Below are positions 19,258-44,040 of a DNA stretch of 64,000 nucleotides, piece after piece. This stretch comes from Morinoia aosen (lineage: Eukaryota; Arthropoda; Malacostraca; Amphipoda; Talitridae), in contig CM059577.1 of NCBI GenBank assembly GCA_030386875.1, positions 25,059,038 through 25,123,037 on the forward strand, written 5' to 3'. Both the position numbers and the translations under genes were made by a program. Position 1 is the stretch's first letter; each line of letters starts with the position of its first letter. The notes beneath the pieces were generated by a model. The model was not told the origin of the DNA. It ran no database searches and was given only the letters and a program-made list of their open reading frames with translations.

Positions 19258-19430
19258 TCTATACTACAATAAGATCCGCGTCCGTCCGTCGGTCCGTCTG
19301 TGTGGCACACCCACCAGCCGAAAGTGTGAGATGAGCGTACTTGTGATACAAGCTTCATCAACTCTACAATATTCAGCGCCTTAACTAAGCCAGCAGATTG
19401 GGAGCCGGAATGAATATCACGTGTATTGTT
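19258..19430 (+). mobile_element. Helitron 5' end fragment with an empty TTAA site
   Basis: Starts 'TCTATACTACAATAAGATCC', then the family's 'gcgtccgtccgtc' block. Over about 19270-19425 it matches the reverse complement of 42470-43750 outside the inserted TTAA element there. The TTAA at 19381-19384 is intact and uninterrupted. In the other copy the same TTAA (43644-43647) is filled by a 1.1 kb element. The base before TC is G rather than the usual A. No CTAG terminus was identified, so the copy is probably truncated. Confidence 0.6.
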
Positions 19431-19699
19431 ATGAAATAGGAACGTGTGACATGTGATTTGTCGAACATTATTGTACATTTTTGACGGGTCGTGTGCACTC
19501 GTTTCTAATAAATTGGGTCGTGACCGCTAAGACATTACTTCTCGCACCTGGCACTGTTAAACATTGCTAATTGTACCCTAGAAGATGATATACTGTTGAT
19601 TTGAATCTTAAATATTGAAATTTTTGTAACTGGTGAAATGCTGGTGCTCTCTTGACATTGAAATTCTGCTACTTGCACTCTCTTACCAATCGTCCGAAC

Positions 19700-37152: not shown

Positions 37153-37156
37153 TTAA

Positions 37157-38282
37157 AGGGGTCCTCCCTTCAAAATTAAATTTTGATCTGATTGGTCTGA
37201 TATTTGGCCACTATATGTATATTTGCAAGAGAGAAACATATTTTATTCGAGAAGTTTTTTTATTTAGGCCTTAGTTTTTTTTTAAACTCGTTTTTTGGTT
37301 CATTTTTGGGATGTTTTCAAAAGAATAGAAGTCAATGAATTTTTATGCTAGAACAAATACAAAGACAGTTTTGAAATCCTCGTAACATTGCAAACAAACT
37401 GATAGGTCTGAATTTCCTATTTGGAATTATTTTTTTTATATATGGGATATTTGATCAATACCTAAAATATACAGAATTTTTAAGTTTTGATCTAGCAGAA
37501 AAAAAGACAACTAACAAATTGGAAAATCGAAGGCGATCAGTTTGTTAGAATTGTTCCAAGGATTCTAAAACTGTCCTTGTTTTCTTTCTAGCATAAAAAC
37601 TCAATGACTTCTATTCTTTTGAATTTTGAAAATAAGTGACCACAGTATAGGCCATAAACAAAATTTTTTTTTGTAGTGTAATATAATGGAAAATTTATGT
37701 AATTAAATGCTGTTTTCGTTTTTATTTCGATAATCTCCATGCATAACATCATATTCACACTGTCAATTTTAATTTACAGAGAAAAAAATTAAAAAATTTA
37801 TTACTTATATCATTAAATTATGAATTTTTTTGTTTTCAGTCTGATTCTTATGAAATTTGACTATTATATGTAACTTTTGAAAAGAAACACAATTTTATCT
37901 ATACATTTTTTTGATTCAGGCCTTAGTTTTTGAAAAAATTTGACATATTGATTTTTAGTCCACTGGTATTGATATTGCAAAATAATAGAACTCAGTGAGT
38001 TTTTATGCTAGAACAAAAACAAAGACAGTTTTAGAATCCTTGTAACATATCTAACAAAAGAACATTCGCAAATTTTTCATTTCTTCTTTTGTTTTCTTTT
38101 TATATGGGGTCGAAATGGAGTCGAAAATTAAAGATTTTGGTCCCCTTACCCTTCCCCCTTGGGGGGGGATCTATTGTCCGTAGCGCCATAAAATTTTTGG
38201 ACCGAATAGTCCACCATCTGATGGTCCTTTTCCAACAAAAACATGAAAAATGACCATCGGAGAGAAAAAGGGCCTGGCCCCC
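37157..38282 (+). mobile_element. TTAA-site non-autonomous DNA transposon, copy 1 (1126 bp)
   Basis: Flanked by direct TTAA at 37153-37156 and 38283-38286. The ends are short inverted repeats (aGGGGTCC... and ...GGCCCCC). It matches 42520-43643 in reverse complement over essentially its full length. No transposase frame is present. Inside are three copies of a roughly 70 bp module with core 'tttttatgctagaacaaa' in alternating orientation (about 37318-37390, 37552-37622, 37973-38045). The TTAA duplication is the hallmark of piggyBac-type transposition, so a piggyBac-mobilised MITE is inferred. Confidence 0.8.
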
Positions 38283-38286
38283 TTAA

Positions 38287-41915: not shown

Positions 41916-42519
41916 CAGTTAATTGCGAGAAACATTAATACAGGATGATATGGAAGAAAAGTTCCTGAACGAACAGCGGAAAATTTTGAAAGACTGAGAA
42001 CTCTCACCCAAGCTCATGGCCGGCATTTTGAATCGTAGGTCCTGCAAAGTAAAATACGAGTACAAATGAAAAATTAACTCTTCTTCTTTCTAATAATATC
42101 AGTATGATTTCCCTATCCTGCCAGTGAAAAATGTATAGCAATATTAGAAAATGTACATTTTTAGCAAATCGTATTTGATTAAATACGAGACTGGTATGCA
42201 ATATACGGGTAATAATGGTCTGGTTGGTTACAGAAAGAGATCCCCAAAATTTAATTCTTTATTTTGTGAATTTACCAAGAAATAATTTCACCTTGTGCGA
42301 ATATTATCGAAACGAGTGCACACGGCCCGTCAAAAAAATGACAGGATTAGACATAGGACCAAGTGAGCTTCAACATGGCTTGCCCATGATTTTCAATGTT
42401 ATTCTACTCGTATATCTTTCCAAACTTTTCCCAAGTCTCAACCGCTGCTATTCTATTCAACCTAATCTAACCTACCAATACACGTGATATTCATTCCGAC
42501 TCCCAATCTGCTGGGTGAA

Positions 42520-43643
42520 GGGGGTCCTCCGAGGCCCCTTTTCTCTCCGATGGTCATTTTTCATGTTTTTGTTAGAAAAGGACCCTTAGGTGGTGGACTA
42601 TTCGGTACTAAAATTTTATGGCGCTACGGACAATAGATCCCCCCGGGGGGTAAGGGGACCTTAAATTGTCGACCCCATTTCGACCCCATATAAAAAGAAA
42701 ACAAAAAAGAAATGGAAAATTTGCGAATTTACTTTTGTTAGATATGTTTCAAGGATTCTAAAACTGTCTTTGTTTTTGTTCTAGCATAAAAACTCAATGA
42801 GTTCTATTCTTTTGAAATATCAATACCAGTGGACTAAAAACCAATATGTCAAATTTTTTCAACAGCTAAGGCCTGAATCAAAAAAATGTATAGAAGAAAT
42901 TGTGTTTTTTTCAAAGTTTTCATATATTAGTCAAATTTCATAAGAATCAGACTGAAAACAAAAAATTTCATAATTTTATGAAATAAGTAAAAATTTTAAT
43001 TTTTTCTCTTTTTGTAAATTACAATTCACAGTGTGAATATGATGTTATGCATGGAGATTATCGAAATAAAAATGAAACAGCATTCAATTACATAAATTTT
43101 CCATTATATTACACTTTAACAAAAAATTTTGTTTCTGGCCTAACCAGTAAAGTCACTTATTTTCAAAATTCAAAAGAATAGAAGTCATTGAGTTTTTATG
43201 CTAGGAAGAAAACAAAGACAGTTTTAGAGTGCTTGAAACCTTACTAAAAAAATAAGGTCTTATTTTTTCCATTTGTGCATTTAATTTTTTTTATCATAGT
43301 TCATAACCAAAAATTCGTTCTACTTTATATATTGTGGTAAAATATCGCATGTATAAAATAAAAAATATTCAAATACAAAATCCATGGCCTTATTTTTGTT
43401 AGAAATGTTTCAAGGATTCCAAAACTGTATTTTTTTCATCCTAGCATAAAAACTTTTTGACTTCTATACTTTTGAAATATGTATAAAAATGACTGAAAAA
43501 ACTAATATTTCGAATTTTTTGGAAAAACAAAGGCCTAAATAAAAAACTTTTCGGATATAATATGTTTTTCTTCCCACAATACATATACTGACCAAATTTC
43601 AGACCAATCGGATCAGAACTCAGTTTTGACTGGAGGACCCCCC
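42520..43643 (-). mobile_element. TTAA-site non-autonomous DNA transposon, copy 2 (1124 bp)
   Basis: Inverted relative to copy 1 (37157-38282). The ends are GGGGGTCCTCC and GGAGGACCCCCC. It is flanked by TTAA at 43644-43647 and by TGAA (one change from TTAA) at 42516-42519. It interrupts Helitron sequence that is continuous at 19300-19425, where the single TTAA at 19381-19384 is the empty site. Three modules with core 'tagcataaaaactcaatga' lie near 42748-42825, 43165-43235 and 43400-43475 in alternating orientation. No transposase is encoded; piggyBac-type mobilisation is inferred. Confidence 0.82.
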
Positions 43644-44040
43644 TTAAGGCACCGAAAATTGTGGAGTTGATGAAGCTTGTATCACAGATACGCTCATCTC
43701 ACACTGCAGGCTGGTGGGTGTGACACACAGACGGACGGACGCGGCTCCTTTTATAATATAAAGTAGATATAATATTATATTCGGCGGATTTCACGAATCA
43801 AAAATCGTGTACCTTGAGAAGTGTTCCTGCCTCGAAGAAGAAACTTTCAACTTCAATGAATACAATTTTACGAGCAGCCTTGACCGTACAAACAGGCCAT
43901 CATGAGCCTGAACTTCATTCTGTGGGGACATACAAAATCTTAAATGTACTAAACTCGACGATGTATTATATATCAGTAGACATTTTGGGCTTTTTCGTAA
44001 GTTTCTCTTTGACGACCACCAGTTTTCTACTAGACATTGA

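Follow-up and report, generated by a model that had tools for sequence, protein, structure and literature searches.

In this study, we asked how a 1124 bp stretch of non-coding DNA came to split a dispersed repeat of Morinoia aosen at a single TTAA, and to which superfamily of TTAA-targeting transposons this mobile element belongs. The element lies on the plus strand at 42520–43643 of the window, by which we mean the whole 64,000-nucleotide stretch of DNA analysed, and its length is as claimed in the original prediction, which had placed a 1124 bp element in a repeat near 43644. No open reading frame of more than 50 aa (ATG, GTG or TTG start) overlaps it, and the one of 50 aa begins outside. 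It is bounded by short terminal inverted repeats (TIRs), GGGGGTCCTCC at 42520–42530 (plus strand) and GGAGGACCCCCC at 43632–43643 (minus strand, with one C more than the consensus of 26 copies), and by two target-site copies on the plus strand, TGAA at 42516–42519, which is TTAA with one substitution, and TTAA at 43644–43647. The host repeat is split into a left half at 42473–42514, next to the site, and a right half at 43648–43741, both on the plus strand. The putative assignment of this repeat to the Helitrons, made in the prediction, would call for TC...CTRR ends with a 3' hairpin and insertion in AT. At the filled site the sequence is GGG-TGAA-(element)-TTAA-GGC. The filled TTAA site of the prediction thus holds for the right flank, while two intact TTAA copies are not present; the site is best read as one TTAA that was duplicated upon insertion and whose left copy then mutated at one base.

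An uninterrupted copy of the same repeat, claimed earlier as an empty-site control near 19381, occupies 19287–19431 on the minus strand. From alignment with the reverse complement of 19260–19430, 38 of 39 aligned bases of the left flank are the same (score 37, with a maximum of 15 in 300 shuffles), and the right flank scores 77.5, with a shuffle maximum of 16.5. Homology around 19381 thus extends to both sides of the site rather than stopping on one side of the TTAA, and therefore the observation of an insertion stands. The copy had been described, at 19300–19425, as continuous with one TTAA; it is indeed uninterrupted, but at its site, 19381–19388, where the minus strand reads TTAGTTAA, it exceeds the common empty site by 4 bases.

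We additionally searched the genome (1.99 Gb, 29 contigs; TTAGG arrays were absent from 1.5 kb at each of six contig ends) with this copy. All 40 scored copies, the window's own among them, cross the site uninterrupted, these being the best 40 of 2095 candidates, a scoring which favours uninterrupted copies. Fetching 80 bases for eight of the other 39 gave the clean empty site GGGTTAAGGC, GGG-TTAA-GGC exactly, in four (L100, L102, L103 and L106) and variant sites in L101 (GGGTTAATTAAGGC), L107 (GGGTTAAGTTAAGGC), L104 (GGGTTAAAGGC) and L105 (AGTTAGGC). A pattern search returned 533 host-repeat copies with 12–42 bases between two anchors around the site, and among the 54 that come first in contig order a single TTAA is found in 48, TTAATTAA in two and an altered TTAA in four. 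That the empty copy bears no relation to the two flanks, and the arrangement is an artefact of assembly or chance, is vanishingly improbable: we found no point in its favour, and it is refuted by flank scores well beyond those of shuffled sequence, by the copies that cross the site and by the fetched empty sites. We could therefore confirm that the 1124 bp insertion at 42520–43643 is real, and the locus offers natural examples of one TTAA both occupied and empty.

The element belongs to a large family. The 15-mer TTAAGGGGGTCCTCC occurs as an exact end 837 times in forward and 814 times in reverse orientation, 1651 in total, compared to 2 + 1 = 3 matches for the reversed control pattern. Of 39 further copies fetched from the genome, 29 carry TTAA at both ends at most 9 bases from the predicted boundary, or 25 of 35 if segmental duplicates recognised by common flanks (L012/L014, L027/L028 and L038/L039/L040) are counted once; L041, with a spurious left TTAA 10 bases off, is not among the 29. 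Fetched copies are 83–91% identical to one another. The window copy and the 25 copies with TTAA at both ends that are left after this reduction, 26 in all, were aligned to a consensus of 1139 bp. The median K2P distance to this consensus is 0.088 (0.057 for the window copy), and therefore the family is not young. Both the window copy and the consensus have 5'-GG...CC-3' termini, i.e. RR...YY. Inside the element, a unit of about 65–100 bp is present three times in both orientations: the arm at 42733–42831 (plus strand) pairs with its inverted copy at 43154–43252 (minus strand) at 84% complementarity, and a third unit at 43430–43494 (plus strand) pairs with 43151–43215 at 82%. At 1.1 kb, the element is large by the standards of MITEs. 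Another copy lies within the window at 37157–38282 on the minus strand, 88.9% identical to the consensus and flanked by TTAA at 37153–37156 and 38283–38286; its left TIR is damaged.

The original prediction of a TTAA-specific, piggyBac-type MITE proved right in its first part, since the element is a TTAA-specific, non-coding DNA transposon with short TIRs in a repeat with empty paralogues. The second part was not supported. One of the many piggyBac transposases of this genome could have moved the element, given the TTAA target duplication that the piggyBac superfamily shares with it and at least 116 piggyBac domain matches, many with open frames. However, where TIRs at TTAA are clear, in 23 of 30 fetched piggyBac loci, all 23 begin with C, whereas the element begins with 5'-GG, and we found no relation between the TIRs. 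Of the remaining seven loci, six are without a TIR and one (L074), with an AT-rich match only, was dropped, as were second-best TIR matches of other piggyBac loci. None of the 30 has TTAAGGGGG at its own ends; the motif is present in L063 outside its piggyBac, as part of a family copy truncated where the fetched DNA stops. Since, in addition, the long DNA homology of the element leads to genes of a different transposase, as set out below, and the sole strong match in the control loci is this element copy outside the piggyBac of L063, we consider a piggyBac origin very unlikely. TTAA alone does not mean piggyBac, and what was likely a misfiling is corrected here. As a separate observation, six piggyBac loci (L048–L053) with open frames of 576–645 aa share one 14-base TIR at either end, CCCTTTCGGTCCGA, which points to recent activity.

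As a model for the partner transposase we tentatively chose PF20700, which is named Mutator in Pfam. The genome yielded 111 matches, of which eight loci were fetched, and long element-like DNA is present in four of these (L091, L093, L096 and L097), while no such homology was found in the other four (L090, L092, L094 and L095). The best match to the consensus is L096x, 74% identical over 616 columns (E 6e-105), followed by L091, L093 and L097x at about 70% over 573–580 columns, all lying downstream of the ORF with the same orientation. In the window copy, the 3' part concerned, approximately consensus 518–1115, corresponds to about 43023–43620 (plus strand). Upstream of the ORF, L097x additionally matches consensus 44–171 (E 2e-21) and 48–159 (E 3e-19), the former corresponding to a 5' subterminal part at about 42563–42687 (plus strand) with 75.6% identity. 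L091, L093 and L097 are mutually 88–97% identical and constitute one family, and therefore the shared 3' block is known from two lineages. The best score among 100 shuffled consensuses was 38 bits, compared to 370 observed. Among 32 control loci (30 piggyBac, two P-like), only L063 gave a strong match (314 bits, 89% over 241 bp), which is a family copy that landed nearby; the next best reached 35 bits.

The right end of L096x is TTAA-GGTCAACCC, i.e. GGTTGACC-TTAA, a TTAA-GG terminus, while its left end was not found within 1.15 kb upstream of the ORF, and the fetched stretches of L097, L091 and L093 contained no clear TTAA-GG terminus. L092 and L095 are 2.76 kb elements with an identical 16-base 5'-GG TIR, GGCCATCGAACGGTTT, directly inside TTAA; these termini fit Kolobok. 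In an alignment of all eight ORFs, D268, D372 and E549 (L096x numbers) are conserved in eight of eight, making them candidates for the catalytic acidic residues, and the C and the H of the signature in seven of eight each, with W for C in L096 and Y for H in L094. Kolobok elements are described in PMC9587614 as producing TTAA duplications, as having 5'-RR and YY-3' termini unlike those of piggyBac and as encoding a transposase with the signature D, D, C/DxxH, E; RR termini are likewise given in PMC6004289. A literature search found no paper naming both Kolobok and PF20700, and the placement of PF20700 elements in Kolobok, which we infer, therefore rests on the TTAA-GG ends and the signature.

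Taking this placement into account, the element agrees with Kolobok in its 4-bp TTAA target-site duplication, its RR/YY termini, the sequence shared with PF20700 elements and the transposase signature of these presumed relatives. It is therefore highly likely that the element is an old non-autonomous member of the Kolobok superfamily of DNA transposons, shortened by internal deletion. Within this superfamily, the T2-MITEs of Xenopus, as portrayed in PMC6004289, are similar in being non-autonomous MITEs with a TTAA target and 5'-RR...YY-3' termini, but start with AGGRR, whereas the element starts with GGGGGTCC. According to PMC6004289, a THAP domain is usual in Kolobok transposases, though not defining; two PF20700 proteins scanned against Pfam gave PF20700 only (E <= 0.001) and no THAP domain, which therefore lowers our confidence in the assignment. 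KolobokP shares the superfamily placement and RR...YY ends with our element but differs, according to PMC9587614, by long terminal direct repeats and target-site duplications of mainly 3–4 or 4–5 bp, compared to short TIRs and TTAA here.

Weighing against the link to Kolobok is the case of L063, in which a copy landed beside an unrelated transposase, that of a piggyBac. Sola3 also uses TTAA, and the element could belong to a third group of this kind, with its likeness to PF20700 loci reflecting an old nested insertion; the family copy in L063 shows that such neighbourhoods arise, and the ends listed yielded no autonomous copy sharing the TIR of the element. Nested insertion would, however, have to account for a 3' block that follows the ORF, with side and orientation unchanged, in both the L096 and the L091/L093/L097 lineage, and for a 5' part upstream of the ORF in L097x. 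The identity of 70–74% at these loci is moreover lower than the 83–91% among fetched element copies. We therefore regard a third-group origin as improbable and retain the Kolobok assignment, by which a family with 1651 exact ends is tied to PF20700 transposases of the same genome.

We propose a model in which the element would have arisen as a deletion derivative of a PF20700 Kolobok that kept the end regions and lost the gene. Its TTAA-flanked 5'-GG...CC-3' ends would be cut by a Kolobok-type (PF20700) transposase acting in trans, and the excised element would be pasted into a TTAA within the dispersed repeat, leading to duplication of the TTAA. Cut-and-paste in trans, the PF20700 lineage of the transposase and the exact partner of the element are presumed in this model.

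The empty copy of the window touches on excision. Its site GGCTTAGTTAAGG (given in an alternative form as CTTAGTTAA) is extended by 4 bases relative to the usual empty site, resembles the TTAATTAA variants and equals GGGTTAATTAAGG with two substitutions. In a pattern search for 3–9 additional bases immediately following the target TTAA, 14 places were found in the genome, all 14 with exactly 4 extra bases and ten reading TTAATTAA; searching in like manner at a control position lying 8 bases upstream gave one place, likewise with 4. These variants might be scars of Kolobok excision, in which the whole element was removed and both TTAA copies were kept. If so, the empty copy of the window, TTAGTTAA, would be a once-occupied site, Kolobok would, unlike piggyBac, leave the TTAA duplication behind, and the TTAATTAA sites would be evidence on the excision of Kolobok elements. 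We consider this unlikely. The excision of KolobokP, as reported in PMC9587614, deletes 1–5 flanking bases on one side, which disagrees with a clean TTAATTAA. The variants could equally represent a shared subfamily of the host repeat, which would also predict that four of the 14 places (on C2, C10, C16 and C21) are among the best 40 matches to the 4-base-longer copy of the window, or could stem from slippage at TTAA.

A transposase-bearing copy with GGGGGTCCTCC ends was not found among the first 100 listed of the 1651 exact ends and the listed matches of a 111-place subset, from which four pairs were fetched, none of them coding. When ends of opposite orientation were simply paired within these first 100 places, the longest two pairs, of 3.26 and 2.40 kb, were interrupted element copies. 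As candidates for an autonomous copy we rejected L078, an element copy split by sequence containing a 530-aa ORF that by eye is retrotransposon-like, L079, another copy into which about 1.25 kb has come to lie, as well as L080 and L081, both 1.3 kb element copies. The L096 transposase has a further copy, in three pieces of 87–91% identity, at C24:69652549-69658771; this copy shares upstream DNA with L096 (89%), while the 3' stretch fetched there matches neither L096 nor the element. By eye, the upstream DNA common to both is LINE-like, as if the two gene copies had been duplicated together with their surroundings. L092 (C7) and L095 (C24), 99.5% identical and each with a PF20700 ORF and 5'-GGCC TIRs inside TTAA, are apparently young Kolobok-like elements. 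Loci with a THAP domain were also considered as the Kolobok partner and rejected, the two fetched of 150 matches (L088 and L089) being without a TIR at TTAA. Both loci hold the same 4.6 kb element, in copies that are 99.3% identical and have a TIR of at least 31 bp, and L088 has a THAP ORF of 904 aa; from features typical of P elements, they probably represent a recent P element.
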